A stretch of DNA of 64,000 bases, taken from positions 13,826,001-13,890,000 of the forward strand of contig OX344753.2 in NCBI GenBank assembly GCA_947034885.2. Reading direction: 5' to 3'. Position numbers and translations under genes: made by a program. A model generated the notes under the pieces. The model made no database searches. It saw nothing but the letters and a program-made list of their open reading frames with translations, and was not told where the DNA came from. Shown here one piece after another: positions 1,523 through 57,220 of the stretch; positions within the stretch are counted from its first letter, which is position 1, and every line of letters begins with the position of its first letter. Origin of the DNA: Thuidium tamariscinum (taxonomy: Eukaryota > Streptophyta > Bryopsida > Hypnales > Thuidiaceae).

Positions 1523-2449
1523 TTAACCCCTAAAGTCCCAAAGTCCCCTCGGGGGACACTTGGGATTTCGGGCAGGCTCGTGTGACTTGAAATTTTGACC
1601 TGATTTTTTGAAACTTTTTTTGAAGATAGGGAATTACATCAGCTTTCTAAAAATATAATTTTTTTTTCAATCGGTGCCTGGGAGCAGAAGTTTTGCCATC
1701 CAAAGTTAAAAAGCAGTTTGGCGGGCAGAAAAAAAAAACCACAAAAAAATGAAATTTTTTTTTTCAATTTTTTTTCTGAAAGATTATGTTTTTGTCTACA
1801 TTTGAAGCTTTGATTCATCCTATTTGGATTAATAATGAAAAAGTTATGGACAATCTTGTTTTTCGGGCAATCTAAGCATCTTCTTCAAAAAACAACTTTT
1901 AGAATTCATTTTTGAATGCAATTTTCAATTTTTTTCAAATGTTATTTTTTGACAAGGTTAAGTTTGTTTTCAAGAACAATCCCACCGTTGGAATTATGAT
2001 TTTTTAATTCCATCTAAGGGCTATTAACAATTTAGTATTTTGTTCACCTTTGGACCTACTTCTACTTAACAATTTTTTTATATGTGAAAAGCAAGTTTTG
2101 ACATTCTGAAATTTTTTTCCCCAAATCTCAACTCAAATGTTCAAGATAAAAAATTTTAACCTTATGGTGTGTAGTGCAAAAAAATCCACAAATGGCCATC
2201 AAAGTCACCTGAAATTGCAGGCCGCAATTGAGAAAAACTTTTTTTTTCAACTTCAAATGCTAATATCTTCAAATCCGTATGGTCAAACTTCATGAAATTC
2301 TTACCACATGATTTGAGACAAGTGAAGTACAAGATCCTACGGTTAGATTCTAAGAAAAAAGTTTTTTAGGTTTCTTGAGTGATTGCAACAAAAATGGCAG
2401 TTTTCAGTGGTTTCAGAGCCAGAAAATGCCTTGGGAACTTAGGGGTTAA
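1523..2449. mobile_element. TTAA-bounded non-autonomous element, copy 1 (927 bp)
   Basis: The element begins TTAACCCCTAAAG and ends CTTAGGGGTTAA, so the termini are inverted and both edges carry TTAA. The interior has no usable reading frame and is rich in A/T runs. Internal stretches are shared with 50722-51662 and, in reverse complement, with 18449-19391, 52.2-52.9 kb and 56294-57220. An example is the segment around 1800-1860 about a weakly conserved GATTCAT and AAAGTTATGGAC. TTAA duplication next to CCC termini is the signature of the piggyBac superfamily. Assignment to it is inference, because no transposase is present. Confidence 0.7.
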
Positions 2450-5021
2450 ATAAACATCTATTTTTTTAATAATTTTTCACACCTTTCATAACCACCATTG
2501 TCATATTTGTTATTTCTTCTTAATTACTTCAATTTATTAGTACCAATTGCTCTTACAAGCTTGATGTGATAGTGAAATTTTCACCAATTGACAATCTATT
2601 ATGTACCAGACAACATGGGTAGATGGCTTGAGAAACCAACTTTGAGACAATTCTAAGTAGAATCCTCTATCCCATATACTGAAGAACTTACTTCTAGGTG
2701 CCCCCACAAAATCCAACAATTACGATTTAAGATTTAGAAAGAGACTCGTGATGACATGGGAATCAATTCAACAACTTGTTGATTAGATATATTATTTTGA
2801 ATAGGGATCTTTTGCCATTCAATTTTTTTTTAACAATCCCCCTACTAGAATTTTTGCTCAAAATAAAAACCATGGATTTAATCCTTCTTGGAAAGCACTT
2901 TCTCCAAAGACAAACTTTAATATGAAAAATTCTTTCTAAATTAATCTTTGCTACAATTCTATACTTGGGAATAAAACTTAAATGTTTATAGAATATGTCT
3001 TTTATATTTGTTATAAATAGAAACTATCTATAAGCCAAATTTAACAAAATTTGAAAGTAGACAAACACCGTAATTATGGCCAAATTCTAAATTCTTAAGG
3101 TGGGTAGGTGCATAAATAAAAGAAATTTATGCCATTGAAGCTACATTGATTTGTTCTTTTAGTGCATATAATACTAATTTGCCAAAGTCATGCTATATGT
3201 AAATTAAATTAATTAGTGTAGATTGAAGTATTATTAAATTTCATCAAATTCCGCAAGAATTAAAATTTTCTAGTGATACTAATTTTCTAGGTGATGTCAA
3301 TTTTCCTCTCACTAATAGGACACATTGCCAAGGTAGTACAACTTGACAGTGCAAAAGTGGAAATAAAGGTTTTTGCAATAAAAAATAGGGATAAGTTGGT
3401 AGAAAAAGTGTATTCTTTGATATGAGTGGTAATTTTATATGAAAAAATTACTTGATTTTAAAATTTATTTTGATGATTTTTTTGATAATTTCTGAATGGT
3501 AATTATTGTGATAAATTTGAAATGCAACTTGGCCTTAATTAATTAATTCTTTTCTTTAGCTTTATTTATATCTATATGGTATTTTTTATGCATGTTGATT
3601 ATAATATTATAATCCCATATATTCTTCATATACTAGTTTTTACATATACCAATAACTTTTAGCTTTAGAGATACTTTCTAATCTATGCACAGAAGAACAT
3701 TTTCATTCTTATAATACTTTAAAGTAATAATTGGAGATTTCAAATTTTAAGTCAACAATATTTTATTTTTTATAAAAAAATATTTTTGTCTTTCTTTTAT
3801 TTCTTATGGTGGAATCAAAGCACATACAATTATTATACCTTGACTTTGACTTCTTCTTTTACCCACTTTGTAAAGGACTACTTCTTCAGTACTACATGCT
3901 AATCTCTAACACATGCTCCTAGCAATGACGTAACACGGCTCTACCTATTGGGGTTGATTGGAGTTGATTGAAGTAAATCTCTAATTTTATAGAATGATTT
4001 TATGTTTGACAAAAAGATCTTGAATGTGTAATGATAGTATTTTAAATTCTTAACATACTATCTTTTTTGAAAGTATTTCAATTTCAATAGTTCATAACAT
4101 TTTTCAATAATAGAAGTTAAACATTAATTCTATATCCAAAAATAACCATTTGAGTAAAGTGAATATTGACATTTGTCATCTTTTTGTCAAATAACATGAC
4201 TACTTTTCATTGCTAGTCATTGAACTTTTTAAATTTATTGTTGGTCTTCCTTGTCATAATTTGCAGTCTCATCATAGAAAATGTCTACTTGGTCTCAATT
4301 TAGTGAAAAGAAGGATGGATGAAGCTACAAGTGTCATTCATGGTGACAACATTTGGAGTTGTCTTTTAGCATGCCATCTAAATTCCTGTGGTCATTTACA
4401 TAGGAAACCCTAATGAAGGCTAATCTTTTCAAAAGGAAAATACTTGACCATAAGTTTAAGGATATCTTAACTACATTGAATATTGACTCTTGTTCAAACT
4501 TATCTTTACTATACAATCCTAAAAGAACACATTTTGAATATAGAATTGTAACTAAAGAATAATGTGTATTTAAATCAAGATGAAAATCAACTAATATATG
4601 TTGGAACTTAGGACAAAGAGTTAGGACATTTTAGGTTTGGACAGTAAATAACACTTTTATGTTGTTATTATTCTTTGATTTGGTCAAATTATTATTATTC
4701 AAAAAATTTCCATATAGGCTTCTATATAAGAATTTGTCACATAAGTAGAGTTGCCACATCAATAAACCCACTTCGTGAATGGGACTACAAAACTTAATTT
4801 ACAAAAATTCTCTATTGTATTCAAAATAGTTCAATATGTTTAGCACTCAAACTTTGAGTGCTACTCAATTTGAATTTTGAAGAGATGATAAAGTAAGCTT
4901 TTTATATAAGTAGGGTGGTAAGAGATAGAACAACTTAAATGGGATATTTAAATTAGGATGACTAGGAGCTTTGCTTGTAGTTAAGTCTATACTAGGAATT
5001 ATGGTTAAAATATAATTTCAA
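2450..5021. other. AT-rich intergenic DNA, no gene seen
   Basis: The short frames in this stretch lack coding character and look like chance openings in AT-rich DNA. A segment near 2548-2600 (around a CACCAATTGACAAT core) recurs near 6280 and 7250, so degenerate dispersed repeats are present. Confidence 0.5.
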
Positions 5022-5345
5022 GCGTCATTTTGGCATAGTAGACTATTTTTTTCAAAAAATCTTTAGCTTAAGAAAGGTGGGAAATCAAGCCAAATTTCAT
5101 CTCCAAAAATTTGTTTGAGATTTTAAAACTCCAATAAGAAGTTATGAACAAATTTGATAGATGGATTGGAAGGGACATTTTCTTAGACAATTTCAAATAT
5201 CATCTCTCAAATTTGTCCATATCTTTTGATTGGAACATTGAAATCCCAAATAGATTTGTAGCAATGAAAATTTTCTTAATTTCCTTCATTTTCATGGTTC
5301 AAATTTTTTGGAAAAAGTATAGTTTATAATGCCAAAATGAGGTCT
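5022..5345. repeat. Imperfect inverted repeat (foldback) with axis near 5183
   Basis: The outer arm around 5022-5058 (containing CATTTTGGCATAGTA) pairs with about 5304-5345 (TATAATGCCAAAATGAGG). Inner parts around 5110-5156 pair with about 5200-5250 (an ATGAACAAATTTG core against CAAATTTGTCCAT). A related palindromic arrangement lies at 47340-47690, which shares the motif of a 'CCTCATTTAGGCATAG' arm. This looks like a non-autonomous foldback element, now diverged. Confidence 0.55.
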
Positions 5346-7688
5346 AAAATTCTACTTTGACAAAGTTAATAAATTACTAAGTCAACTATACAAATTATTT
5401 TTTTAGTGAAATCAACACAATTTTGTTGGTTGTGTACTAGGTTGCTAGATGAACATAACCCAAGACAAAATTGTTTTAATCAACATAAACATGTTCACCT
5501 TTTGTTGATTAGGGCCCCATTTTCTTGCAATTTTAAATAATATTTTATTCATTTTTCACAATTTGAAAGTGTAGGATCTTATTAATGACTTATATTATAA
5601 TCTTGCCTACATTAGATGAAATTTGAAAGCAACAGAGGGCTATTTCTAGGTTGTTCCCCTATTATTCCCTTTGTTGTCCAAAAACTATGAACTAGCTCCT
5701 ATTGCTTGATTTTTTGAATTTTTGAATTTAATTTTTAATATTAAATTAAATTTAAATTTAAAATTAATTCATTTTTATAATTTGACATGGCATGGTCTTG
5801 GCTATGTCAAAGTTCTAATATATTAAGTTCCTACAATTTGAAAATAGTCTAAGAACTTGAAGGAATTCAATAGAGCTCACGGTCTTTTAATGCCCCAAAA
5901 TTTCTTGTAATCAAAGATTTGAGTCTACAAGCAATGTATACATAAGATATGATTGATCAAAAAACAAGACAATGTTTTTTTCAAGGCTACTTGAGTTTTT
6001 GGTAAGGTAGCTAAGTTGTCAAGTTTTTGAACTCTAAAACTCAAATTCTATTTTCTAAAAATATATATTGACTTGTAAAGTTTTATTACCAAAAAGATAG
6101 ATCTTTGTAAAAATTAATTTTCCTAAAAGGTCTTTTGAATCTCTAATCTCAAAAAAATGTGAAGAAAAATCCAAAATCTAATTTCACTTTCAATGTCCAA
6201 AGCATCTATAGGAAGTAATTATTTCAACTTGTCAATGTCAATATCTCCTACATGCTTGATTTTACAGTTGAAAATTTCACCAATTGGCATTGATATAATA
6301 TTTAATTTCTTACCATCCAATAAGATCAAGTACTACTGCACTTCCTACATAATGAAACATTGAGATCTTGTGACATCAAATGCAAAAAAGACAAAAATTT
6401 CCAATTCATGAGGAAAAGGCAACTTCCACATCAAACAATGGATTTTCCAAAGGATCATTAGGGAAGATTTGAGGTCTCTAAGAGCTGTTCAGGTCTGTTT
6501 CTAATATTGCTAATTGCTGTCAAATCAACAATTATCAAAAAATAAATATAAAAATAAAAATTTATGATCTTGAAATGCCAAAAAATTAAATTAAATTTTT
6601 TTAATGACATGGCACAATCTTGACTATGTCAGATTCTTGCATTTGTGTATTCTTGCAGTGGTTTCTACACTCCCATAGTTTAAAAACTCGTAGTCTTTTA
6701 AAGGTCTCAAATCTCTTCTAATGGCTATGATTTATGATAAATTGCTTCGAGCAACATGCTTTCTATAAAACACATTGGTCAAGCTTGGAAGATGAAGGGC
6801 TAACTAATTGAAGTAGACTTTCAATGCTATTGAATGATGCTATGTTTAATAAGGAGATTTTGAATTTGAAATGATATTATCTTATTAATCTTTTCTTTTG
6901 AAAATATTCCAATTTCAATCATTTATACACTCTTTTAACAATAGAGGTTAAATGCCATTTTTTCCCATCTAGCTAGGAAAGATAATTTAAGCATAGTGAA
7001 TATTATAACTAGTCTTTTTTTTGTTTAACAATATGGCTCCCTTCCATTGATCTTCTCTATCAAATTCATTGTTAGTCTCAATTTTATTTCTTAGTTAAGT
7101 CAATCTATCAATGTCTCTATTTCCTACATGCTTGATTTGATTCTTTTTCACTACTTCTCTCTATCAAACCCATGGTTGGTCCCCTTAATTCTTAATTTTT
7201 TCATTTTGCCATCATCAATGTTTCTTGAGTATTTGACTCAATGGTTGAAATTTCCACCAATTGACAATGATATAATATTCTCCCTATATGGATTCATTGA
7301 TATGGACATCCAATGCTATAGAGCAATGTTAAGTGTTAAGAAGATTTTGAATTCAAAATAAAGTATAGTATCATGCTTAGCTATTAAGGTTGGCCAAAAA
7401 TATTTCTGATAATGAATGCCAATTTTTTTGGAAATTCATTTGCATAAAAACTTTTTATGTATGAACAAAAAAGAAATATTTTATAATATTAGAAAATATT
7501 CTTAATTTTTTGGCAAATTAATTAATTATTTGACATAAAATGCAGATCTTTATAGCTATGTACAATATCCGAATATTCCATCTATATCTAAGAGAGTTTG
7601 TTTGTTTGTCATGTTGAGATCTCTTGGACCTTACACCCCCCTTTGTCACATTCTTCATATTGTCGAAAATCTCTCGGCAAGGAGGGGT
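5346..7688. other. AT-rich intergenic DNA with degenerate repeats
   Basis: No gene is supported. Segments near 6230-6310 and 7100-7290 resemble each other (CCTACATGCTTGATT, then TTCACCAATTGRCATTGATATAATAT-like sequence) and are probably copies of one decayed repeat. Confidence 0.45.
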
Positions 7689-8688
7689 GTACAGTCGGGT
7701 ACCATAAACTTACGAATTTTTGCATTCACAGTGAAACAGAAGTTCATTGCCGCCCACTTTGACGCCCTCCCGAGGGCTGAAAAATTAATATTTTTCCACT
7801 AAATTTCTTCTACAAGATCCTCTCTATGCTAATAACATATGTACCAAATTTCAAGTCCAAATGATTTATACAAAAAAAGATATTCAAACATGTACCAACA
7901 TGTGTAGTTCAAAAAAAAAATTTCACTACTACCAACTTTGACACCCTCCCAAAAATCAAAAAGAAAAGTTTTGGCCATAAAATTTTTGGTGTTAGATCAC
8001 CTTAGTGTTACTAACTAATGTGCCAAATTTCAAGTTCAAAAGAATTTCCCACAAAGAGTAGTTCAAATTCTACCAACTAACAAGTGTAGCCATGTGGAAC
8101 AATTTCACTATGGCCCAACTTTGACACCGTCCCAAGGGCAAAAAATTGTTTATTTACCATGAAATTTTTGGCATGAGATCACCTCTATGTTGATAATATG
8201 TGTGTTAAATTTCAAGGCCAAAAGATTTACTTAAAAAAAGATATATTCAAAATCTACCAACATGTGTTGTTATGGAAAAAAAAATCCATAACTACACATG
8301 TTGGTAGAAGTTGAACTACTCTTTGTGAGAAAAAATTTTGAACTTGAAATTTGGCACATTAGTTAGTAACACTAAGGTGATCTTACACCAAAAATTTCAA
8401 GGCCAAAACTTTTTTTTCCAATTTTTTGGGAGGGTGTCAAAGTTGGTAGTAGTGAAATTTATTTTTGAACTACACATGTTGGTACATGTTTGAATATCTT
8501 TTTTTGTATAAATCATTTGGACTTGAAATTTGGTACATATGTTATTAGCATAGAGAGGATCTTGTAAAAAAAATTTCGTGGAAAAATATTAAATTTTCAG
8601 CCGTCGGGAGGGCGTCAAAGTAGGAAGCAGTGAAGTTTTTTTTCATTGTGAATGCAAAAATTCGTAAGTTTATGGTACCCGATTGTAC
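7689..8688. repeat. 1-kb foldback: about 400-bp inverted arms around a 200-bp loop
   Basis: The left arm (7689-8089) starts GTACAGTCGGGTACCATAAA; the right arm (8292-8688) ends with its near-complement GGTACCCGATTGTAC. Landmarks mirror throughout, including the ACTTTGACRCCCTCCC box, the 'GAGGATCTTGTA' block and 'ACTACTCTTTGTG'. The loop (8090-8291) is not unrelated sequence. It is a third, diverged copy of the roughly 175-bp module present twice in the left arm, giving the order 1-2-3-2'-1'. Direct copies of an AAGGAGGGGTGTAC motif lie at 7680-7693 and 8823-8840. A transcript through this region would form a very long hairpin. Confidence 0.85.
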
Positions 8689-12024
<3,336 letters not shown>

Positions 12025-13100: not shown

Positions 13101-15698
13101 TATTTGGATGAAGTGCACACCCTTTAATCCCTAAGCATCCAAACTCATCTCCACAATTCATGATTTTGGGAAAACCTCCACAAAGAACTTTTTGGAAGTA
13201 TATTTTGGAATTGAGATGGAAATAGAAGTTGTAGAGTTTGAGTCTTAGATTCTATCCGTATGGTAAGATTCACTAATACTATTACCAATATTCTTTTACA
13301 AATTTTCAAATTCAAAATTCAAAATTCCTTCAAAATTCAATTACAAGTGAAATATTGTCATTTTTTGAGTAAATTTTGTTGAAATGGATCTAAAATGAGG
13401 TTCTCTTGACATTGTGATTTTTTGGAATTTTTGTATTCTTGGATTCTATAGCCTCATTTTTGCATTTCCAAGTTTGAACTAGAGTCAATGCAATTTTGGC
13501 TTGGTCACCACTTGACATACTTCTACATTTGTAATTTTGGAAAAATACATACTTTAGTAACACCAAATCCAACCCTAGGATAGCAATAACTTCATAAAGT
13601 ATCTTTAGAAATTAGGATGAGTTTCATCCAAGCTATGATGAGAGAAATTTAATTTTCAATCTATATATCATCTAGAAATTGGACATTGGAGTGCTTCAAG
13701 GTGAACACCTAAATGTTTGAGGCACCAAATTTTGGTATTGACAAAACATGTGAAATAAAATGCAAACCTTACTAAGATATAATTTTCAAAAGGTTTTTGG
13801 GAGAAAAATTCTTTTTGAAGTTTGGTTTCAACATCACAAATTTGATTTTGAAAATGAATGATAATGATTTGACTATTTAAGATTTTGTACAAGAGTGTCT
13901 ATTGCAAATGTTGATTTTCTTGTGTTAAGTGATCTTGGCAATGAGCTTCAAATACACTACTATAGATCTTAGAGAAAAAATCCCATTAGAAATTCATTTT
14001 TAAAAACTTGTAGAGTATATTTTTCTTTTTTGGTACAAATGAAACAGAATCTCATTGTAAGGGTACAATACAAGACTTGTCAGCTACAAGTGGTCTAGTA
14101 CAAAGTTATAGAATAGATTTTGAGAAGCTATAATTGATGAGAGTGGTGTATGTTATGTTCTTTTAACCTCATATTTTTTTGGTGACATCAATTTTAGATT
14201 TGACATGTGAAAAAGAAGACTAGAAGATTTCAAATCACTTTTATAGTCTTAACACTATCATCATCAAATATTGTAGTCTTTCAATCCACAATTAATATTG
14301 TTGTATTTTCTTTTTACATGACTATGATATCTAATATGTATACTTTGAATTCATGTGGATACAATTTAAAAAAATCAAAAAAACTTATTAAATTCTTGCT
14401 TTTTGTTCAATTTAGAAAAAATTTAAAGAAGCTCAAAATAGACCTTAGGCATTTAGGGGTTAATCCATAAAATTCCTTTGGCATTTTGAGTCCAAAAAAT
14501 GTTTAAAATAGTCACTTTTGTGTCCACATTTTTCCAAGGATTTTTCAATGAATTTTTTTAACTATGACAATTGTAATTCTAAGATCTTAATCTCAACTTT
14601 GTGAAGAATAGATACAAAAAATTTTACATGCAAAATTCTTACCACTTATGAGATTTTTTAGCTTAAAGAAGACCTTTTTTTTCATTGCATGCCCATTGGG
14701 AAATCTCAACTACAAAGTTCAATGAGAACAAGACAATTTTGAATTTAGTTTTGAATTTTTTAGTATAATGTAAATGCTAGGGTTGAAAACTACCATACCC
14801 CAAGGTTAGAACTTGAGTACATTTTGTGAAAAATTTAGGGACCTTGTATTATTATGATCTCTTTGTAAAGGATAATTAAAAAATCACAAAACATCAATAA
14901 ATTCATTAAAAATTAAAAAAATGTCTTTATCTACAATCTAGTTGATAGAATTTTTTCACAAAAGTGAAAAAATAAAAAATTTAAAAAGTTCTAAATCACA
15001 ATTTTATAGCCTACAACATGATTTTTCTTGCCATTACCTTTGAGGAAGAAGATTGTCCTATGTCAAGAAAATTGTCAAGTAGCAAATCCTCCCAAGTGCT
15101 TTGATGATTGTAGAAATTCAATTGTAGAGGTCAAATCACTCAAAAATGAATAGAAGATGAATCTAAATTGGCATGTGCACATATATTGTATTTTTAGATT
15201 TATCTCAAAAAAAATGCATTTGAAATTACAAATTGTGCGCACAAAGAAGTTGAAAAGTCAATAAATCAACTCACTGAAGCCTCAAAAACCACAATGTAAT
15301 TGCAAGGAATTTTAGAAGTTGAAACATTTATCACTCCCCTTGTCAATGATTGAGTATTTTGGGGGCTTCAAATAGGTACATTAGGTTGCTTGCTTGAACT
15401 TTTTTCAAGTTACTACATTTGTCCTAAAATAAGTGTTCAATTATGATTTTTGTATTGTCATGAATTAGATTTATACTTTTTATTGCTTAGCCTTCCATAG
15501 CCTCTAGTTGATCTTCTCTCACATGTGCCACTCCAAAACCTCATGCACTTTATTAAAATTAGACATTTATCTTGAGACGGAGGCAGTAAATGAAGTTTCC
15601 AAACCTAACAATCATTTTTTTTGAAATGCACGTTTATATTCTTTGTAACCGAGCAATGGGAGATAATTATTCAAAATTAGATGAAATTATCAAACTTG
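13101..15698. other. AT-rich intergenic DNA with element fragments
   Basis: No gene is supported. A TTAATCCCTAAGCATCC-like terminus near 13123 and a TTTAGGGGTTAA terminus near 14452-14463 look like ends of diverged TTAA-bounded elements, but I could not pair them with confidence. Confidence 0.4.
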
Positions 15699-15699
15699 A

Positions 15700-16228: not shown

Positions 16229-17038
16229 ATTAGCATTAAAACAACAAAATTAGCGATTAAAACAACAAAACTAGCGTTTAACCCCTAAGTGCCGCCAGCG
16301 CCAATTTTTGGCGTTCAGCAAGTTTCACAGGGGCCAAGAGGACCTGAATAGTAGTTTTTTTCCTTCATTTTATTTTAGTGACCTTTCATGTTGAGTTGTA
16401 AAGAGTCTCCAATTGAGTTTTTAGTCTAACTAATGTTTGTTTTTATGTAGTTGAGAAGTAACTAGAGAAAACGGATGACAAAATTTGCCATTTTAATGTA
16501 TTTTGAGAAATTGACAAAATCCGAAATTTCTCCTTGAAAATGACATTTTCTGAGTTTGAGCCCAACTAATGAAATGAAGGTCCTCTACTCGAGTTTCTAC
16601 TCCAATTGAAATTTTGGAAAAATTTGGAAAAATGAATCTTTTATTGCAGTTTGCACTTTGGCTGTATTTTTAATGTCCATTACATTCTAATTATAGATGT
16701 ACATGGTAAATTAGTTTACACCACAATGATTTTCACTGTAATTTTTGCACATGGTCAAATTTTCAGATTTTTTGAGATTATTTTCAATTTGATATGATTT
16801 TTTTTCATTTTTATTTCAGAAAATTTCATAAAAAAACAATTTTCCTCAAAAAAATCTGAAATTTCAGTGAAGTACAGAGGACATGCAGTTTCATTTCTGA
16901 AAAATAAAAATAAAATTTTTCATATGCATCTGATTACAAAATGGCAACAAACTGAGCGACAGTGCAGCCTGAAACCAGTGGTCATAGGCTCGGCGTTTTA
17001 GGGTTAAAACAACAAAATTCGCGTTAAAACAACAAAGT
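16229..17038. repeat. 21-bp tandem repeat interrupted by a TTAA-bounded insertion
   Basis: The repeat unit is close to ATTAAAACAACAAAATTAGC. Two units lie at about 16233-16276 and about two more follow 17004. The 16278-17007 element splits the array. Taking the element out with one TTAA restores an unbroken unit, so this is an internal record of the empty site. Confidence 0.75.
16278..17007. mobile_element. TTAA-bounded element, copy 2 (730 bp), with readable target site
   Basis: The left end is TTAACCCCTAAGTGCC, the right end GTTTTAGGGTTAA, with TTAA on both sides. The interior is AT-rich, non-coding and only partly similar to copy 1, although the termini agree. It contains short GC-richer terminal stretches around 16288-16345 and 16960-16998. 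Insertion inside a tandem repeat shows TTAA is duplicated on integration. Confidence 0.72.
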
Positions 17039-17257
17039 TTTATTACAACACTGTCAAAAGTTTTAGAGATACCGGTGACATTAGAGATTAATCAAAAAGG
17101 TCTCCCCAATTTGAACGAAGGGTGCCAAAGGAAAGTTTATCAAAGAATAAGTTAGTAGAAAAGAAACACAACACCACACTTCATTAGACCATAATTTTGG
17201 TGCTTCAAGGGTTTTTGTCTTGAGAGTTCTTTTTATCAAACTCCATCTCCATCATTA

Positions 17258-17530
17258 AGGTAGGTACACCCAAAATGGCACCTGACCTTAAAGCGCTCTG
17301 TACAACGTGCATAGATTTTCAAAATCAATCATGTACCCAGACTGTAGATGGCGCTTTCAGAAACACACTTTGACTGTTAATAACTTTTGCATACGGTATC
17401 CAAATCCATTGTTCTTTAGTGCGTTGGAACATGCTTTCACTCACCAACAAGACTGTGAAAAAATTTGAACAATATAATAACAGGAACTAGTCACAATATA
17501 AGAAACTGGCGCTTTTGGGTGTACCTACCT
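17258..17530. mobile_element. TA-flanked MITE, AGGTAGGTACACC family, copy A (273 bp)
   Basis: The inverted termini are AGGTAGGTACACCCAAAA and its complement ending GTGTACCTACCT, immediately flanked by TA on both sides (17256-57 and 17531-32). The interior has no reading frame and shares blocks with the copies at 19507, 35471 and 58705: a 'GCCATCTAC' or 'GATGGCGCTTT' segment, and a central stretch about ATACGGTATCCAAAT. TA duplication is typical of Tc1/mariner (Stowaway-like) MITEs, but these ends are not the Stowaway consensus. Confidence 0.75.
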
Positions 17531-17532
17531 TA

Positions 17533-18448
17533 GCGGTGTTGCAATTAGATACATGCCTTAACTCATAAAAGATGTCTCAGACGTTTAGTGTCCAATGAAT
17601 GACCAGGAATCCTCTTGTGTAGGTCAAAACTATAACTATTCAACTTTAAAATTAAGGGTCAAAAGTGGAGATCCTCTATAGTAGGTTGACTTAAAATGAG
17701 TTCTTTTGGATTTTTTTATACCAATGATTCCCACAATTTTAGAAGAGGTGGTTTTCACAAAGATCCCTCATGTCTTTCTAGGATTAATCGAAAAGGTCTC
17801 TCTAGTTTGAACCAAGGGTGCCAAAGGAAACTTTAACCAAGAATAGTAGAAAAGAACCACAACACCAAACTTCATTAGACTATAATTTTAGTACTTCAAG
17901 GCGTTTTGTCTTGAGAGTTTTTTTTTTTTTTTCAAACTTGAGCTCCTAGTCCCTCATTGCACACACTCAATGATTAATTGTAACATTAAATCCCTCATTT
18001 AGAAACAATATTTTAGTATTTTTAATGAAGGATATTGGTTGTACGTGGACTTATAATCATCATTGTCCAAAATGCCACACCTATATTTTGGCCAAAGAGA
18101 AACACTAAAACTTAAATATTGATGACACAAGTTGTCTACAACTATAACAAGAAGGTTTTGAGAGAGTAAAGTGTTGATTTTGGGTACACCTACAAACAAT
18201 TATTTAAATTTGTATAACTTACTGATACAATGTCCAAATGATGATACATTGTAAAGTACATTGAAATCCCTTTTCACTTGGCAAGCAAATTTAATACACT
18301 TCAAGGAAATGTAGTCATTTTTTGTCAATTTGGACATTTTTTTGGTCAATTTGGACAATTTTCTATCGATTCGGACACTATTTGTCAATTTGGACAATGT
18401 TTTATTGTAGTGATAAAAAATAATTTATGTCATAGAATAGTAAGTCTA
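17533..18448. other. AT-rich intergenic DNA with short 'TTTGTCAATTTGGACA' repeats
   Basis: The segment 17770-17930 repeats sequence found at 17090-17230 (GGTCTCTCTAGTTTGAACCAAGGG region), so a local duplication surrounds MITE copy A. At 18315-18400 a roughly 20-bp motif, TTTGTCAATTTGGACA, occurs about four times in degenerate form. The same motif recurs near 46870. No gene is supported. Confidence 0.5.
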
Positions 18449-19391
18449 TCCCCTAAAGGTTTTTGACTATGTTTCTACCAAAATCACTCCAAAACTTGGA
18501 TTTCTAATATAAGAGCAGTTTTTTTTCTTAAAAACATTTTTTGACATATTTAACTGTAGGATCTTGTAGTTAGGTGGTTTGAAAAGATGTGAAAAAAACT
18601 TCAGAAATTTTCACCATGTAGATTGCAAGATTTTAACATTTGAACTAGTGAAAATCCTTTTTTTATCCGTGCAAAAATCCGGGCAGCTGCTTTTCACAAG
18701 GTCACATTTGTAGGATAAAATGCTCAAAATGATGGTTACTCTTTGAATTCATTTTACAATGCAAGTTGTCTATACGCTCAAAAAAATTCAAATCATTTGG
18801 AATTGTCTAACATATAGGAAAAAAATAGTTAGTAGAAAGAAGTAGAAAATGCTTTAAAATACTAAATTGTGAACAATTTATTTATAAAAATAAAAAATGT
18901 CAATCCCAATGGTTAAAATATTGTAATAAACAATCTTCACTCAATTTTTTAGTTTTTTTTCAAAAATATTAAAAATTTAATTAAATATAGAATTTCAAAC
19001 TTTTGTGTAGAGTAGAGATTCTATACCTACCCGCAAACTACCCCAAACTAAACTTCCTCATAACTTTTGACTCATTTATCGAAATGGAATGATTCAAAGC
19101 TTTCCACATAGATAAAAATCTAATAAATAAATTTAAAATTTAAAATTTTTTTTAAAGTAATTTTTAAAGAAGTTTTTTTTCTGCCCAGGCTACCCGCAGT
19201 TCAAACAAAACAACATATCATGCCATAACTTCTTAACTGTGTAGTCAAAAGTTATGAAAATTGTTGGAACTTGAAGCTACTCCTTGGACACATGTTGTGT
19301 GAAATTTTCAAAAAAATAAAAACTCCATTCATAGTGGGCTGCCCAAAATCACTATGTTGCCAAAAAACACAGTTCAAGGCTTTAGGAGATA
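18449..19391. mobile_element. Degenerate TTAA-family element (reverse orientation)
   Basis: The interior matches 56294-57220 along its length: CCCCTAAAGGTTTTTGACTA at the left, ACTCATTTATCGAAATGGAA in the middle, then ATGTTGCCAAAAAACAC near the right. The terminal TTAA sequences are eroded here (TCTATCCCC at the left, TTTAGGAGATATT at the right), so this is an old copy. Confidence 0.55.
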
Positions 19392-19506
19392 TTCAATTGC
19401 TATTAGTGTTGATTTTGAGTACACTTACCTTACAAGGTACCAATAATCCTTTGCCTCTGTCTCTTTTGAAGTGGTTAATTTTGTATTTGATGACCTCTTC
19501 AAAGTA

Positions 19507-19769
19507 AGGTAGGTACACCCAAAAGCGCCACTTATTCATACTGAGCCTAGTTCCTGATATTAATGAGTTCAAATGCTTGTTGGCAAGTGAAAGCATGTTC
19601 CAACGCACCAAAGAACGCAAGATTTGGATACCATATGCAAAAGTTATTAACAGTCAAAGTCTGTTTCTAAAAGTGCCATCTACAGTCTGTGAACATGACT
19701 GATTTCGGAAATGTATGTGCACTATAGATGGCGCTTTTAGGAACAGGGCGCTTTTGGGTGTACCCACCT
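19507..19769. mobile_element. TA-flanked MITE, AGGTAGGTACACC family, copy B (263 bp)
   Basis: The termini are AGGTAGGTACACCCAAAAGC and GCGCTTTTGGGTGTACCCACCT, with TA on each side (19505-06 and 19770-71). The interior is shared with copy A, including GGATACCATATGCAAAAGTT and ATAGATGGCGCTTTT. Confidence 0.78.
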
Positions 19770-19771
19770 TA

Positions 19772-20774
19772 ATTGAAAATCTTCAATTCCAAATACAAAT
19801 CCACTTGTCCAAAGTTGTCCAGCAAGGAGGGGATCCAAGCTTAGATGCACGGCAGTTGCACTGAAGGTCATGTTGCTGTTTTTTGAGCCCACCCATTTTT
19901 GATTCCTATGCCACTTGTAATGCAATTGCTTGACCCCTTCTTCCAATCTCTTCTGTAAGTTGATGCACTCCCAATTTCCCCACTCAAGCATGTTCACGGA
20001 ATCAATCAGCTGCGGAACAAGTCTACAAATCAGACATTGGAAAAGCAATATCCAAGGTGGGTACCTCCAAACCACCACTTTTTGCTACTATGTCTAGTTA
20101 CAATTATTATTATAAGGTAGGTGGCTCTAAAAGCAACCTGGCTCTAAAAGTGACCTCTAACACAGAGGTATATTTTGCTTTCTTCAACGTACAAATAGTG
20201 TGCATTTCAACATTCAAGGGGTCACTTCAAGAAACCATTGTATTTCAACTTCAAAAATTCATAATTAATTCCTCAGAGGTTCAAAAAATAGGAAATGACT
20301 TGGATTGGATGCCATTTCCATTAATCTCTCTAGGAAAATTTATTAAAAATTATTTCAAGGAGTTTAGCTTCCTCAAAATTTCAATCATCTCTTAAAAGGT
20401 CACTTTAAGAGCGCACTACCTTATTGGTCAAAATTTTATATTTTTCTCATTGGTAAATGGAAGGAAGTTCCAACACACCAAAGATGCGACATTTGGATAC
20501 CATGTGCATAAGTTATTGAGAATCAAAGTTTTTTTTAGTAGAGGTTGTAAAATCATTTCTTATGTCCATATAGATTTTAAAGATGTACATGGAGTGATGA
20601 TGGTGGTTTTAAATAGGGTGTGATTTTGGGTGAATCCACCTGAACACAAGGTACAATAACCTTGTTCTAAAAGGTTTAAAATTAGCATTTGTGCATGGGT
20701 CCTAGTAACCTTGTAAGGATGGATTGAAGCCATTGATTTCAAGCGTCATTGTCCATCACTCTATTTGCATGGTT
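19772..20774. other. Intergenic DNA with partial or nested MITE copies
   Basis: Around 20055 (AAGGTGGGTACCTCCAAACC) and 20113 (AAGGTAGGTGGCTCTAAAAG) there are left-end-like sequences. 20455-20640 carries the right half of an AGGTAGG-family MITE (GGATACCATGTGCATAAGTT, ending near GGGTGAATCCACCT). The block therefore looks like nested, decayed insertions. No gene is supported. Confidence 0.45.
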
Positions 20775-20998: not shown

Positions 20999-20999
20999 G

Positions 21000-22860: not shown

Positions 22861-24003
22861 CAAATGTCGACCTCAATGTTTATCAATTATTTAGGTCTTT
22901 CCTTCTTGCTCAATTTCTCAAATGCCACTAACTTTGTCCACAAGCCATGAAGGATAATTCATTTTTGGAGCACCTACAATTATTTTTTCCCCATTTATTA
23001 TGAAGCACCAAAGTGATGATATTCAAAGTTGTAGTGGTGCTCCAAATTTCAACATTCATTCACATACTAGATAGAAAATATCACATTGGCACATATCACA
23101 AATCCATTATTTTCTTTTCATTCACAATCTAGCAATTTCATCCAAGATGTTTTCTTTTTAAATTTGAAGTATTTTTAACAATTTCATCCAAGATTTTACT
23201 ATTTGTGTTCCAAGGGTGTGGTGCAAGACCTATTAAGGTAGAACCACCTATAACCAATAGGCTCCCCATAGTCAACCTTTTGATGGACGTATTTCCAACC
23301 AAGGCTAGAATGAGTTTTTTTCTCATTTTTAAAGTTGGGACTAAAAATTCATGGCACATGTTCCAATGTAGTGTACAAGAAAGTAGAAAAGAGTGAGTAA
23401 AAATGTATTTTTTTGCGTGATCGAAATTAGAAGACTCCACAGATTGGTATTTGGTCAAGTACACTTTATGCCTTCTAAAATTCATAGTAATTTCAATTCA
23501 TATGATAAAATTACCAAAGTTTTGGGAATCCCCATCATTTTTATCTTTACACCTCTGAAAATATTTTTTTTGCTTTGCACTACACTAGATCATGCCTAAA
23601 ATACCTTAAATGATCGGTTACGGGTGGTTCTACCTTACTTTGGTGCAAATGGCCCACAAATGGCCTCCCCAAAGTCGCTACAAATTTACAAAGCCCAGTG
23701 ATTAGTATTCAATTAAGAGATGTGCTGGGACACTCTATTAAAGTTATCTTCCAACAAAGTAGCACATGGCATATCATCAAAATCATATAGCAGTTGCCAA
23801 ATTTATATTGTCTTACCAAAACTTCTGCACAAACAGACACTTCACATAATAGAACACAAATATTAGAATCCGAGTGGAGAAAAAGTGTCCCATTGTTGAA
23901 CGTTCACCCTGCTGCAAGATGCCCAAAGAAATGGAAATGACTTGTTCCAGAATTCAGTCCTGTTGAGCACAAGTCTGGAAGTTTACCTATTCAATTTATG
24001 TCA
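22861..24003. other. Intergenic DNA with a dispersed repeat
   Basis: 22975-23150 contains a repeat (GTGGTGCTCCAAATTTC, GAAAATATCACATTGGCACATAT) that recurs at 59400-59540, and reversed at about 42260-42420 and 45660-45725. No gene is supported. Non-repetitive sequence begins near 23640. Confidence 0.5.
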
Positions 24004-24255
24004 CAACCACAAGTGTATGAGAACTACAGTAGAACCTCTCTAAGTTGGTCCTCTATAAGCCAATAGATATCTGTAAGCCAATGTTGTTAGATTAATACTA
24101 GACAAGGCCACATTACAAATATTATGTGGCAACCACAAGTGTATGAGAACTATAGTAGAACCTCTGTAAGTTAGTTTTCTATAAACCAATAAACCTCTGT
24201 AAGCCAATGTTGTCAGACTAGTATTGGATAAGGCCACATTACAAATGTTATGAAT
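24004..24255. repeat. 126-bp tandem duplication covering the left end of a MITE
   Basis: The unit starting CAACCACAAGTGTATGAGAA at 24004 recurs at 24130, a period of 126 bp. Each copy contains about 23 bp that lies outside the MITE plus the MITE left end, so the duplication probably arose after insertion. Confidence 0.75.
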
Positions 24256-35200: not shown

Positions 35201-35470
35201 TATTTAACGGCAATTTTTTTAAGGGTTACGGATCCCTCATGAGTATTGGTAATAGCTGTAATTTCATGAAACTCTCTCTCAACATGTTTTTTAAAATTAA
35301 AACATATGCTAAAATTTAGATTTAAAACTTAATATCAATCATCAAATCACAAGTGTGCACAAACTCCTCTTTTACTCTTGAAGGATGGAGATGATGACCA
35401 TGTATCAAACTTCAAAATGATTTGAAATGTGGAAAATAGGTTCAAGTTTTTGTGAAAAAAAATATGATTA

Positions 35471-35739
35471 AGGTAGTACCCCAAAACCGTCACGAATTGC
35501 TATTGTGAGTGATTACTATTATTAGATTGTTCAAATTTTTTAATTGCCTCAATGGCAAGTGAAAGGATGTTCCAATGCATGAACAAATGTGACATTCGGA
35601 TACTCTATGCAAAAGTTATGAAGGAGCAAAGTTTGATTGTAAAAGCTTTTTTTTCATATAGGAATATAATTAACTTTGGAAATGTACATAAAGTATAGAT
35701 GGTAGTTTATGGTTAGTGGCACATTTGGGGTACCTACCT
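35471..35739. mobile_element. TA-flanked MITE, AGGTAGG family, copy C (269 bp)
   Basis: The ends AGGTAGTACCCCAAAAC and TTTGGGGTACCTACCT are inverted and flanked by TA (35469-70, 35740-41). Interior blocks shared with copies A and B include GGATACTCTATGCAAAAGTTA and TATAGATGG. Confidence 0.7.
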
Positions 35740-35819
35740 TAAATCCTACATATCCATGAAATTGGAATTGTAAATACTTATGTAACTACAATCAATCAAT
35801 ATCCTTTAATTATAATCTT

Positions 35820-36750
35820 AATTTCAAAAGGATTATTTCACTAAATTTGGCAACATAGGAATTTTGAGAAGTACATATGAGATTGTGAGTAGAGATTTCC
35901 ATATTTTGAGCCCAAACTTTAATAGAATTTGAGTACAAGGAATATCTTTTATGTGTACTAAAAATCAAGGCATTTGGAAATATGAGTCAAAAATTGTGGC
36001 ATGATACATTACCTTTTTTGTAAATGGGCATTTTGGGCAAATTGGAAATAATCCCTTCATTCAAAAACAAAAATTTGGAACTAATTATTTTCATTTATGT
36101 ATATGTGGAAAGCTTTGAATCATTTCATTTTGATCAATGAGTCAAAAGTGATGAAGAGTTTTTGTTTGCAAGCAATTATAGATTCTCTATCCTAAAATAA
36201 ACATTGAAATCTTTTATTTTACTCAATTTTCAATATATTTTAAAGAAAAATCATAGGACGTAAATTTTTTATTACAAAATTGCAACCATTAGGATTGGCA
36301 TTTTTCAATTCTTTAAAGATTATTCTTAACAATTTTGTATTTTGATTCATTTGCTCATATTTTCTACTTACTATTTTTTTCATATATGTTGTACAATACA
36401 ATTCCAAATAATTTGAAATTTTTTAGGCAAGTATCTTACTTGGCCTCAACAATAAATCCAAAGAATCACAACCATTTTGTACCATTTTTCATATGATTGT
36501 CACTTGCTAAAGAACAACTGCCCTATTTCCGCAAGGTAAAAAAAACATTTTTGTGCATTCAAATGCTAATATCTGTAATCTACATGGTGAAAAACTCTAA
36601 AAAATTTCCTTCATGTCTTCAAAGCAAATTATCTCAAGATCTTATGATTACAAATCTTAAAAATTGTTTTAAAAAATTTGATACTAATATTAGGAATGGA
36701 AAATTTTTACCATATTAGGATAAACATAGTCAAAAACTTTAAGGGGCTAA
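35820..36750. mobile_element. Diverged TTAA-family element, opposite orientation to copy at 56294
   Basis: Reading in reverse complement, the sequence follows 56294-57220. GGCAACATAGGAATTTTGAG lies near the left, AACTTTAATAGAATTTGAG next, then GAAAGCTTTGAATCATTTCA, and GTCAAAAACTTTAAGGGGCT at the right edge. The right terminus GGGGCTAA is a one-base variant of GGGGTTAA; the left terminus is eroded. Confidence 0.55.
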
Positions 36751-36760: not shown

Positions 36761-37482
36761 TTAACCCCTAAAATCCAAGAAATTCACTTTGAAGGCTTTT
36801 GAAGGTTGGGCTTTGTACCTTAGATCACAAGCTTTATCAAGATTTTTAATTCTTTTTAATTTTTCAATATAGGAAAATTAATTATTTTTCTAAGAATAAA
36901 AATTTTATTCTAGTTTTTGTCCAAGAAAAAAATTTATGCAACAATAACACCAAAATAAACTAGGACAAGAGACAAAAAAAGAACTTGAATTAAATTTGTT
37001 TCTTAAGATTATATTTTTGTCTATGCAAAAAGGTGTGATTCATTCTATTAGGACAATTGATGTGAAAGTTTTTAAAAAAAAAATTGTGGGAAATCTTAGT
37101 AAATTTTTAGAAAATTAATATACCGTGTTTGTTTACAAACTATGCTTCAAAATAAATTGTATATATTTCTATTTTCTTTCTAAAACAATCTCACCATTGG
37201 AATTACTACATTTCAATTCCATCTTAAAGCTGTCAATAATTAAATTTTTTGTGCTAATTTATACTTACTTTGACTAAACAATTCTTTAGGTAATGATATT
37301 CAAAGGGGATCTCCAAGCTCTCAAGTCAAGTCTTCAATATAAAAAAATTTATTTACAATTTTTAGTACAAAATTTTTAGATTAAGGCTATTATTTTAAGT
37401 AGTACAAAGATTTTATGTTTTTTGCTCTTAGCCTAACTAGATTTTGACAAAAAGAATATGGCCTTAGCACTTCAGGGGTTAA
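36761..37482. mobile_element. TTAA-bounded element (722 bp)
   Basis: It begins TTAACCCCTAAAATCC and ends CACTTCAGGGGTTAA, with TTAA at both edges, and lies about 10 bp from the diverged copy before it. It is non-coding. An internal TGATTCATTCTATTAGGACA block is shared with copies 1 and 50722-51662. Confidence 0.7.
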
Positions 37483-38600: not shown

Positions 38601-38848
38601 TTAACCCCTGAGCATCCAAAGCGAATTCATTGAAATCCAAACCTGTCCAAACTCATTCCACTCAAACTTTCTTCTAAGAATAAATCCACATAAACCAACC
38701 GTACCAATTGATAGTCAAGAGAGACCTGGAGGTTTGGGAAAAAGGACACGTCCTTTGACCATACCACGCAAAAGATTATAATAGTCAAACAAGAAAGTTT
38801 TTCAAATTGGAGAGGCCAAATTTTGGTCTTTGGGGCGTCAAGGGTTAA
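38601..38848. mobile_element. Short TTAA-bounded element (248 bp)
   Basis: The ends are TTAACCCCTGAGCATCC and GGCGTCAAGGGTTAA, with TTAA at both edges. It is the shortest member seen and has a richer base composition than its surroundings. The interior differs from the 0.7-0.9 kb members, so it is linked to them by termini and target only. Confidence 0.65.
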
Positions 38849-46752: not shown

Positions 46753-47755
46753 CACTACAAGGAAAATTGTGTCCTATTTGATAGTAATTTTGACATAATT
46801 CTGTCAACTCTGCTGTAGATTAGGAGTACCTATTTTGGACACTTTTTTGACAGAATTCTATCAATTTGGCTGTCAATTTGGACAAAAATACATGTCAGTA
46901 AGTCTTCCTCTCATTCCTTTACCACCGTGGATTTTTTTCTTTGCTACCATGGATTTTTTTTCCACATCACTTTTCCAAAAAACTATTTTCCAAGGATTTA
47001 ATAAAATAGTTGAAATAATGGCTAGAAAACAAAATTGATGAAATTTTTTCAGATGAATGATAAATTTTTAGATGAAATGCTTTTGGATGATTTAATTTTC
47101 TTTTATCAACTTTCAAAAATGTTGACCAAAACAAATTAAAATAATGGAATTAATTTATTCACTAAATTGTTTTACAGCATGAATCATTTGTATTTTGTGA
47201 AATGAATGGAGAAGTGAAGCTCTTTATATACACATACGGAGGTAGGAGGTCAAGCAACCCATATGGGATATATGAATTCTCAAAGTTGTGAGAGCTCATA
47301 GTTAAGTTAAAAATCCAAACTTTTGTATTAAAACTAAGATTTCAGACCTCATTTAAGCATAGTAGAATGTCTCTTTTCAAAAACATTTGAACCAAGACTA
47401 GTTAGAATATGAATTGGAGTTTCAATTTCAAAAATCTGTTTGAAATTTCAAGTTTTCAATCAAAAGTTATGGACAGATTTCAAAGAGGAAGTTTCAAAAA
47501 ATATAATAAGAACAATTTCAAACACCTCTTTGAAATTTCATAACTTTTGATTGGAAACTTGAAATGTCAAAAGAATTTTGAATGCATAACTTGAGTTGAT
47601 TTTCTAACTATGATTAGTTTAATTTTTTTTTGAAAAAATACATTCTTCTATGCCTAAATGAGGTTTGAAGTCTTATTTTCAACACAATTCCTATTTCTAA
47701 CTTAACACATTAATGTCAAAATTTCTGTAGATTAGGGTTCATTTCCCATGTAGTG
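46753..47755. mobile_element. CACTA-like non-autonomous element (about 1.0 kb)
   Basis: It starts CACTACAAGGAAAATTG and ends TTTCCCATGTAGTG, so the ends are inverted with the CACTA terminus of En/Spm-type elements. TTGTCAATTTGGACA-type repeats near the left end resemble subterminal repeats. The interior includes a palindrome (47340-47690). The flanking triplets (ACA and TAA) do not match, so the boundaries or class may be wrong. Confidence 0.35.
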
Positions 47756-47799
47756 TAATATTTTTTTTGAAGATTCAACAAGAGGATTGCTATTATGTG

Positions 47800-47990: not shown

Positions 47991-48763
47991 TTCAATAAGT
48001 GCAACTATTTGCATTGACCAAAAAGTTTACAATAGACTTCCTCCCTTACAATGTATACTACTATATTGTAAGTTCAATTTACAATTTGACTCTATCAATA
48101 ATGAAAGAATTATCAATTTTTTTTCAAAATGAAAAAAATAGGATATTAATTAATGAAAAAGGAATCATATTTTTTCAAAGAAATATGAGGGTATATCTAC
48201 ATTCAAAATAGTTGTGGTGCCACTAACAAAAGTGCAATTTAGTTCTCATTCAAGTACTCTTGTACTTTTTACAATTTAAAAATATAAGAAAATATATTTC
48301 AAAACTATAATTTTTTAATGTTATCTTACAAAATAAATCAAATATTATATTCCAAGAGCTCTACTATAGTAAAATGAATATTTTTTTTCTAGAATGCAAT
48401 TTTGAATCTTCACTTTTTTTCCCTTAAATTCTTCTAAAAATATAATGTTAAATTTATATGTATATAATTCTATTCTCACATTCTTTCATAACAAATATCA
48501 CTAAGTTCTTTGTTCATGTAAGGTACAAACTCTTTATTTTTTTTTTTCAAGGTTTTTTGGAATAATACAAAATATACTTGGAGTTTAAAAGGAAAAAATG
48601 CTTTATGAGGGTATCAAATTAAAAATATTAACAAAGAGATTACTCTATAATTAAATGCTTCAAGTGGTGGAAAAAAAACTTTCTAAATTTTGATAAATGC
48701 CTTGGAAATGGCATAGTATCAAAGTAAGTCCATTTAAGTTTTTGTAAAGCTGTCATTTAAAGA

Positions 48764-49140
48764 TTGCTTCCTTTAATTGTAGACATACCTTCAAATTATT
48801 TGTAATTCATTTCTTAATTGGTTGTTGCTAAAGTCCATAAATATTGTACATTTGAATGAATTGGCTCCTTTGATTGTAGAGGCTTATTTTTAAGAAAACT
48901 TATAATTTATTTTTAAATAATTGTCTCTAAAGCCTATAAGTACCTTTGAATAGATTGGCTCCTTTGATTGTAGAGGCTTATTTTTAAGAAAACTTATAAT
49001 TTATTTTTAAATAATTGTCTCTAAAGCCTATAAGTACCTTTGAATAGATTGGCTCCTTTGATTGTAGACTTACCCTCAAATCATTCATAATTATTTTTAA
49101 ATGATTGCCACTAAAGCCCAAGTTGAAGCTTATAAGTGGA
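48764..49140. repeat. 94-bp tandem array, about four units
   Basis: Units starting TTGGCTCCTTTGATTGTAGA begin at 48861, 48955 and 49049. The step is exactly 94 bp and the second unit shows almost no change. A diverged earlier unit begins near 48764 (TTGCTTCCTTTAATTGTAGA). The near identity of two units indicates recent amplification. It is non-coding. Confidence 0.85.
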
Positions 49141-50721: not shown

Positions 50722-51662
50722 TTAACCCCTAAAGGACCATTACCCCCTTAGTGGACAAAATGGATTTTGGGTAGGTTCCTGTGACTCCAATTTTTGGTAA
50801 AACTTTTTGAAATTTTTCATAAGATAGAAAAATTGATTAGCTTAATGGAAATATAAATTTTATTTCAATTAGTGCCTAGAGCAAAAGTTATACCATAAAA
50901 GTTCAAATTTTCATTTGGCGTGCAACAAAATTTTCTTGAAAAATGTCAAAGTTAAATTTTAAATTTTAAATTCTAAAATAATTTTTTTTTTCTACATGTG
51001 AAGCTTTGATTCATTCTATTTGGACTAGTAATGAGAAAGTTATGGACAAACTTGTTTTTTAGGCAATGTAAATGACTTCTTGAAAAAATAACTTATAGGC
51101 TTTTATTTTTAAATGCAATTTTCACAATTTATAAAAAAGAAACAAAAAAATTGTTGCACAAGGTTATGTTTACTTTCTAAAAAAAATCTCATCATTGAAA
51201 TTGTTGTGTTTCAATTCCATTTTAGAGCTATTAACCATTTAGTTTTTCTTTCAATGTCATACCTACTTCTAGTTAACAATTTTTTTAAATAATGGTAATC
51301 AAGTGTGTTTTTGGAGAGTGTTTTTTTCTAGACTTTCAATTCAATTATTTAATACAAGAAGTTATAAATTTAAATTTTGTAGTGCAATTTTTTTTGACAA
51401 ATGGCGGTCAAATTCATTTGAAATTGCAAACCACAATTCAAAAAAACTTATTTTTTTACTTATAATGCTCATATCTTTCAATCTATATAGTCAAACTTCA
51501 CAAAATAATTACTATATAATCTTAGTCAAATTAAGTACAAGATTCTATAGTTAGATTCTTTAAAAAAAAATACTTTTTTCTATTATCTTGAATGAATGCA
51601 GCAAGATTGGTAGTTTTGAGAGTTTTTTGATAAAGAAACAACCTTGGTTCTTCATAGGTTAA
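50722..51662. mobile_element. TTAA-bounded element (941 bp), close relative of copy 1
   Basis: The left end TTAACCCCTAAAGGACC and the right end TTCATAGGTTAA each carry TTAA; the right terminus has lost two G residues. Order and content of the interior follow 1523-2449, including TTTGATTCATTCTATTTGGA and AAAGTTATGGACAAACTTG. Confidence 0.72.
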
Positions 51663-51681
51663 GTTGTATTGTAACTGCCTC

Positions 51682-54029: not shown

Positions 54030-54032
<3 letters not shown>
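51725..54032. other. Intergenic DNA with element fragments
   Basis: 51830-52150 is GC-richer with several 'CCGTATCCATATCA / GTATCCCGTATCTG'-like runs. 52200-52890 contains a truncated TTAA-family element in reverse orientation, ending GGTCCTTTAGGAATTAA. No gene is supported. Confidence 0.45.

Positions 54033-54124
<92 letters not shown>
54033..54124. repeat. (AT)n microsatellite, about 46 repeats
   Basis: An uninterrupted AT dinucleotide tract is followed by a short TTTA-type run. It is likely to vary in length between individuals and to be hard to assemble exactly. Confidence 0.95.
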
Positions 54125-54128
<4 letters not shown>

Positions 54129-56293: not shown

Positions 56294-57220
56294 TTAACTA
56301 CTAAAGGTTTTTGACTATGTTTTCACCAAAATTGCTCCAAAACTGTCATTTCTAAGACAACTACCAAATTTTAGAAAAAAAAACATTTTTGGAATAATTT
56401 AACCATAATATCTTTTTATGCACTAGTTCAAAAAGATATAGAAAAAAATTCAGAAAGTTTTGCCGTGTAGATTGCAAGATATTAGTATTTGAAGTTGCAA
56501 AAGTCCTTTTTTTACCAATGCAAAAATCCATGCAACTGCAATTCAAAAGGCCACATTTGTATTATTTTTTTTTCAAAATGATTGTTACTCTTTGAATTCA
56601 TTCTTCAATTCAAGTTGGATACATGCTTGACAATTTTCAAATGATTTGGAATTGTACAACATGTACAAAAGAAATAGTAAGCAGGAAGAAGTAGAGAATG
56701 ATTCAAAATACTAAAATGTTAACAATTTATTTGTTGAATTGAAAGATGCCAATCCCAATGGTTCAAATGTTGTAATAAACAATCTACATCCAATTTTTTA
56801 ATTTTTTTTCAAAAATATTGAAATTGAATAAAATAAAGGACTTCAAAGTTTTTTTAAAGTAGATAATCCATAACTACCCAGAAACTAAAATTCTTCACAA
56901 TTTTTGACTCATTAATTGAAATGGAATGATTAAAAGCTTTCCATGTATACATAAATCTATAAAACCAATTTCAAACTTTTATTTCCAAAAGAAAAGATTT
57001 TTTCTTATTTGCTTGAACTACCTGAGTTGAGAAACAAACAACATATTATGCAATAACTTTTCAACCATGTAGTCAAAAGACAAATTATTGGGCTTTGAAG
57101 ATACTCCTCATCCACACCTTCTATTAAAGTTTGGTTCCAAAACATCAAAATCTCTAGTCACATGTACCTGCCTAAAATCGCTATGTTGCCAAAATAGGCA
57201 CTTTGGTCCTTAAGGGTTAA
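56294..57220. mobile_element. TTAA-bounded element (927 bp), reverse orientation
   Basis: It begins TTAACTACTAAAGG and ends GGTCCTTAAGGGTTAA, with TTAA at both edges. The interior matches 18449-19391 along its length and is the reverse complement of the copy-1 type. It has no coding capacity. Confidence 0.72.

Follow-up and report, generated by a model that had tools for sequence, protein, structure and literature searches.

What are the short inverted-repeat intervals, bounded by TTAA, that lie scattered over a 64-kb stretch of the moss Thuidium tamariscinum (assembly GCA_947034885.2, contig OX344753.2, positions 13,826,001 to 13,890,000; all 64,000 nucleotides of it are called the window below)? 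An original prediction from the letters of the window had seen in them a family of possibly piggyBac-like elements. With a probability of about 0.96, these intervals are non-autonomous piggyBac-superfamily elements of 0.25-0.95 kb, similar to miniature inverted-repeat transposable elements (MITEs). The piggyBac-like reading gains support from TTAA targets, from CCC...GGG ends and from autonomous piggyBac members with matching ends. For two of the families, A and D, the analysis establishes at the sequence level that CCC...GGG ends and duplicated TTAA targets go with ends common to autonomous elements carrying a predicted PF13843 transposase of the DDD (three-aspartate) type.

TTAA-edged elements in the window

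All eight intervals noted at the outset were found, the six with TTAA at both edges at exact coordinates. They do not form one family, as had been thought: six of them do (A1 to A3 and B1 to B3, mostly ~930 bp), whereas D and E belong to other families, without a BLAST match to the A/B family in the window and with only the type of end in common. Of the two copies described as eroded, B2 has indeed lost TTAA at both ends; B3 is eroded at one end only and reads TTAA at the other. Six further pieces had been missed (F580, Y, C3, C1, C2 and C4). The elements and their target sites are the following.

A1, 1523..2449, plus strand: non-coding, probably piggyBac-type element of 927 bp, ends TTAA-CCCCTAAAG
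A2, 50722..51662, plus strand: older related copy, TTAA at both ends, 71.5% identity to A1
A3, 36761..37482, plus strand: shorter related copy of 722 bp, TTAA at both ends
B1, 56294..57220, minus strand: subgroup B copy, TTAA at both ends
B2, 18446..19392, minus strand: subgroup B copy, eroded targets CTAT/ATAT
B3, 35818..36750, plus strand: subgroup B copy with TTAA at one end (position set by eye) and TTAG, read inward, at the other
D, 16278..17007, no strand assigned: non-coding element of a separate family, ends matching the autonomous element Aut1
Target array left of D, 16236..16277, no strand assigned: two 21-bp tandem units TTAAAACAACAAAAYTAGCGW
Target array right of D, 17004..17037, no strand assigned: continuation of the array, its first TTAA being the right target copy of D
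E, 38601..38848, no strand assigned: 248 bp, ends TTAACCCCTGAGCATCC / TTAACCCTTGACGCCCC, assigned by its ends only
F580, 13124..13705, plus strand: belongs to a ~580-bp family; the window copy has TGAA as its right target
Y, 13702..14463, no strand assigned: adjoins F580 and C3, boundaries deduced from its ends and from partial matches in the genome
C3, 14460..14853, minus strand: partial A/B-family copy, TTAA at its end
C1, 52450..52891, minus strand: partial A/B-family copy, TTAA at its end
C2, 54448..55184, plus strand: partial A/B-family copy, TCAA at its start
C4, 1143..1232, plus strand: right-hand end of a copy of the A/B family, weak profile match (E 0.043) with exact TTAGGGGTTAA
Paralogous empty site, 58080..58430, plus strand: repeat with a single TTAA, whose counterpart at genomic locus L012 holds an A element

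The six A/B copies are 46-75% identical in pairs (aligned columns) and fall into two collinear subgroups lying in opposite orientation. The four partial copies were counted from a six-copy profile search of the window, weaker matches being omitted. Copy-to-copy similarity ends at or near the TTAA edges, as judged by self-BLAST of the window, by alignment and by profile. In the window the 11-mer TTAACCCCTAA has seven exact matches, where 100 Markov shuffles of the window average 0.07 and never exceed 2; with up to two mismatches it is found 46 times (mean 25.99, maximum 37 in 100 shuffles). The listed TTAA elements make up 14.6% of the window, a figure that holds for the window only. As predicted, the copies are non-coding; the longest stop-to-stop frame of the family A consensus has 90 codons. 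Among the 121 stop-to-stop frames of at least 60 amino acids in three chosen regions of the window no transposase was seen, the first 50 residues being inspected by eye without a profile scan.

F580, Y and C3 adjoin head to tail, with one target tetramer common to each neighbouring pair. From its ends, 13124-14463 had been proposed as a single element; this was rejected, as the genome matches (best hits of 39 further candidates that were scored, 81-84% identity) reach no further than roughly the first 580 bp, and the interval was divided into F580 and Y.

TTAA as the probable target site

In the window, 18 of 22 inspected ends read TTAA, the others being both ends of B2 (CTAT, ATAT), one end of B3 (TTAG) and the start of C2 (TCAA). 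Twelve of these ends had been preselected for TTAA by the original prediction, so a test on 40 ends across the genome is less biased. The genome searches covered the 363.2-Mb assembly of 19 contigs, in which the window lies on contig C5. Among the 40 best copies of A1, 79 of 80 ends read TTAA, and the bases beyond vary. Such a set favours intact ends, and the ends were therefore picked again by inner sequence alone: the inner 22-base pattern of family A has 109 exact places in the genome, against 0 for the reversed pattern. We took the first 40 in order among the matches listed (100 of the 109), excluding the first copies; all lie on contigs C1-C4. TTAA precedes 37 of these 40 ends, the remaining three reading CTAA, TTAT and TTTA, each one base off, and outside the tetramer the further bases vary. 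This check of flank frequency gives alternative target sites no support.

Two loci appear to preserve the site before insertion. The flanks of the A element at L012, joined at one TTAA, match positions 58080-58430 of the window throughout (58087-58415, 85%), where a single TTAA stands. In the tandem array around D, the joints of the 21-bp units read GCG(A)-TTAA-AACAAC, so that the unoccupied form of D's target array is visible beside D itself. For families A and D, TTAA is on this evidence the target and is duplicated on insertion.

Duplication of TA, TTA or TAA within a TTAA target gives the same letters, and single sites cannot separate these cases; a 4-bp target is argued because all four bases are kept. 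The elements might accordingly be MITEs of the usual plant kinds, Tc1/mariner (TA) or PIF/Harbinger (TTA/TAA), that happen to prefer TTAA, and the window does contain a separate 277-bp MITE family resembling a TA family (17254-17532, 19505-19773, 35469-35742 and 58703-58979; ends AGGTAGGTACACCCAAAA). However, only TA is constant in the four copies of that family, as against all four bases at 37 of 40 ends here, and the partner transposase described below is of piggyBac type. We regard this explanation as hardly credible, the least probable of the three alternatives weighed in this work. The 277-bp family itself is probably Tc1/mariner-like, and the TTAA edges of one of its copies are probably due to chance.

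Autonomous partners of families A and D

The original prediction held that, the copies being non-coding, an autonomous partner must exist elsewhere if the family is or was mobile. Such a partner was found in the same genome, combining a piggyBac transposase frame with family A ends. The element, at locus L085 (contig C7, 1528-6670), is 5,143 bp long, has the ends TTAACCCCTAAATGCCCAAAGTCC (left) and ATGCCTTGGGAACTTAGGGGTTAA (right), which start with CCC, finish with GGG and form imperfect inverted repeats, and encloses a 774-amino-acid stop-to-stop frame matching PF13843. Positions 1-140 of the A consensus match its left end at 79%, and positions 627-930 match its last 303 bp at 76.6%. Its coding stretch occurs in three close copies (100, 98 and 96%), each of them bounded on both sides by TTAA and set in different flanks; the right 40 bp of all three are identical to the A consensus. 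The next match to the coding stretch reaches only 73%, and this drop makes the L085-type partner look rare in comparison with the non-coding elements related to it.

A second autonomous element, Aut1 (locus L083), is 5,096 bp long and carries a stop-to-stop frame of 1023 amino acids (PF13843, E 5.1e-79). Its ends, TTAACCCCTAAACGCC and GGCGTTTCAGGGTTAA, start with CCC and finish with GGG, with imperfect inverted repeats. Eleven copies differ by 0-2 positions in all 55 pairs over 3,984 bp; each is bounded by TTAA on both sides, and their flanks differ, diverging directly beyond the tetramer. In the ten other copies the left end lies exactly where the 5,096-bp length predicts, with TTAA in 10 of 10. 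Near-identity of 11 copies in different flanks points to very recent transposition, and at least one autonomous lineage has, on this sequence evidence, moved very recently. D matches Aut1 over 38 bp at 89.5% on the left and 20 bp at 90% on the right. E has only 9 bp in common with Aut1. No autonomous partner came to light for E, F580 or Y, and these three were assigned by their ends. One Aut1 copy (L066) adjoins a B-type element, 83% identical to B1 over 210 bp, with the TTAA common to both.

Sola3 elements also make TTAA duplications, and a superfamily of that kind could in principle explain the target. The same holds for Kolobok, as reported in PMC9587614; the part of that source available to us gives Kolobok ends as 5'-RR..YY-3', against CC..GG here. 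Moreover, autonomous elements with the same ends, from a genome search made with the PF13843 profile, carry a PF13843 frame, which refutes Kolobok or Sola3 for families A and D; for the set of intervals as a whole we hold this origin to be highly improbable.

The transposase

The genome search for a DDD transposase with matching termini thus led to a PF13843 frame and not to another superfamily. In the 774-amino-acid frame, PF13843 (E 2.1e-79) is the sole profile match at E <=0.001. Against solved structures it gives two matches, 6x67 ("Transposase", E 8.9e-33), which, like 6x68, we take to be the Trichoplusia ni piggyBac enzyme, and the piggyBat structure 9c0f (E 2.1e-22). The motifs TIDE, MDNFF and GVDVADQ of the frame align to counterparts in 6x67. 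Across the genome, 116 of 659 first-look candidates were scored with the PF13843 profile; all lie above the cut-off (E 5.7e-80 to 1.4e-70), and none of the 14 control genomes matched. From 30 PF13843 loci, those with a stop-free catalytic stretch were retained and identical ones collapsed, giving 15 moss sequences: the first two aspartates of the DDD triad are present in 15 of 15, the third and the aspartate following it in 14 of 15, with one gap.

A protein search with the 774-amino-acid frame returned 29 relatives (the best 7,999 candidates by common words being scored), and one with the catalytic part of Aut1 returned 48. The nearest relatives of Aut1, at 65-69%, come from the source labelled jgi; those labelled with an organism are animals (fish, mussel, prawn, butterfly) at 26-35%. 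In a midpoint-rooted FastTree phylogeny, taken without its support values and after dropping sequences outside a length range, the 15 moss sequences and 21 proteins from jgi, lgn and ena share a single clade, with a fish protein (P0154) next to it. No close relative labelled as a plant appeared in these protein searches; gene sets often mask transposons, so this does not establish absence from other mosses.

Several observations weigh against a piggyBac origin of the intervals or complicate it. A blind scan of edges with all 16 palindromic tetramers does not make TTAA alone an outlier (pairs with 8-base arms and one mismatch: TTAA 5, AATT 16, ATAT 5, GTAC 5); as the scan fails to single out TTAA, it is homology that carries the case. 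The element at L010 sits inside a B copy, and at the matching place TTGA, not TTAA, stands in each of the window's three B copies, which fits a substitution in the target and is no proof of it. Several of the 116 PF13843 matches contain stops. In the 774-amino-acid frame the first methionine comes at residue 162; the frame ends in a Cys-containing tail and gives no match to the Cys-rich domain profile PF13842. Finally, the middle of the A consensus (~141-626) is without a BLAST match in the autonomous copies, so A is not a simple internal deletion, and the parts common to A and L085 are 77-79% alike as against 96% among A copies. With the unmatched middle, these values suggest that the direct source of A may be another element.

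The same differences in interior and in common parts would fit transposase genes that were unrelated bystanders, with something else mobilising the elements. Against this, the common ends keep their collinear order to the left and right of the transposase frame; they recur with the same sequences in three of three close autonomous copies, and Aut1 and D match at both ends. We consider the bystander explanation very unlikely, even though it ranks first among the three alternatives, and retain the piggyBac assignment.

Copy number and age of the non-coding families

In the search with A1, 40 candidates were scored including A1 itself: the 39 others show 94-97% identity, 38 of them matching positions 1-927 and one 3-927. 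On average, these 40 copies share 97.9% identity with their majority sequence and 96.3% with one another. The resulting consensus of 930 bp starts with CCC and ends with GGG, and its termini form an imperfect inverted repeat (the first 7 bases, and 13 of the first 15). The 39 further genome copies scored with B1 have best matches of 86-90% identity to it, and subgroup B looks older than family A. First-look candidates number 6,320 for A1 and 8,906 for B1, and are not confirmed copies. The elements are thus several families, and they are not mere relics, given the ~96% identity among A copies and an autonomous family near-identical over 11 copies.

Across the genome, the ends of the elements also contain CCCTAAA, probably a coincidence of the CCC-type end. 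CCCTAAA is the plant telomere repeat unit.

Other features of the window

A plant genome had been presumed as host, and one gene of the window bears this out with moss as the host: a frame for a PRT1-like E3 ligase (28044-29342), whose best match is in the moss Ceratodon purpureus (68%), followed by two further sequences and the moss Physcomitrium (54%). An inverted repeat of 1 kb at 7688-8689, with outer arms of 235 bp at 93% and inner repeats, is foldback-like, and so are two related repeats of ~0.5 kb, each mostly self-complementary (4891-5361 and 47212-47706). Positions 57555-63949 hold clustered repeats, direct and inverted, that have diverged, with units near CCCCTAATTGCAAATATGAA, without a match to the TTAA families in self-comparison of the window. 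Local tandem duplications occur at 48761-49120 and 23996-24252 (units of 94 and 126 bp).

A search for an Rfam or tRNA origin of the elements found none, and plasmid records gave no match. The moss Tc1-like elements PpTc1 and PpTc2 were set aside as relatives, since the accessible part of PMC4054914 gives them CAGT ends with TA.

Discussion

We propose the following scheme for these elements. A PF13843 transposase would bind the ends common to autonomous and non-coding elements, cut the elements out at TTAA and insert them at a new TTAA by cut-and-paste; non-coding copies would be mobile in trans only. Head-to-tail chains with single common tetramers, such as that at 13124-14853, could then arise when one element inserts into the TTAA that a previous one has left. 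Beyond this, we lean, with some reservation, towards a native and still active piggyBac system in a land plant, in which several autonomous lineages radiated within a moss lineage and shape a large share of the genome, along with the MITE swarms driven by them and the TTAA-to-TTAA chains.

PiggyBac (6x67/6x68) and piggyBat (9c0f) resemble the moss elements in their PF13843 DDD transposase, TTAA target and CCC-type ends; unlike them, the moss elements are 5.1 kb long with stop-to-stop frames of 774 and 1023 amino acids. Animal piggyBac-type MITEs are short and non-coding, with TTAA and piggyBac ends, and are moved in trans. Those of the moss have the same build; they reach 0.95 kb and belong to several families in one 64-kb window. 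Tourist and Stowaway are names of plant MITEs, which are likewise present as many short non-coding inverted-repeat copies but differ in target and transposase.

The piggyBac traits used here, TTAA and the ends, are as given in the available part of PMC10813416. A survey of MITEs in 207 plant genomes (PMC12550479) distinguishes five superfamilies and one special group, and in its main text, as far as available, TTAA and piggyBac are absent. PiggyBac is named in PMC4438587, in the part at hand, among the superfamilies present in all groups studied, land plants included, and the excerpt of PMC6890710 gives a fern with 1,230 PiggyBac entries (0.00%). In PMC10619864 both matching passages concern 'piggybacking' and not the transposon. 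Among the literature matches listed (titles and starts of abstracts; most subscription journals lie outside the search), none concerned piggyBac in a moss. The superfamily is apparently not new to land plants; its scale and youth in a moss may be.

PiggyBac, a transposon tool in wide use, has been studied chiefly in animals. Here a kind of transposon that has seldom been described in land plants comes with more than 100 strong matches to the transposase, an autonomous element in 11 near-identical copies and numerous non-autonomous partners, making up a plant-native system for studying transposition, silencing and the origin of MITEs. Plant MITE surveys that consider the customary superfamilies alone could give such families a wrong name.

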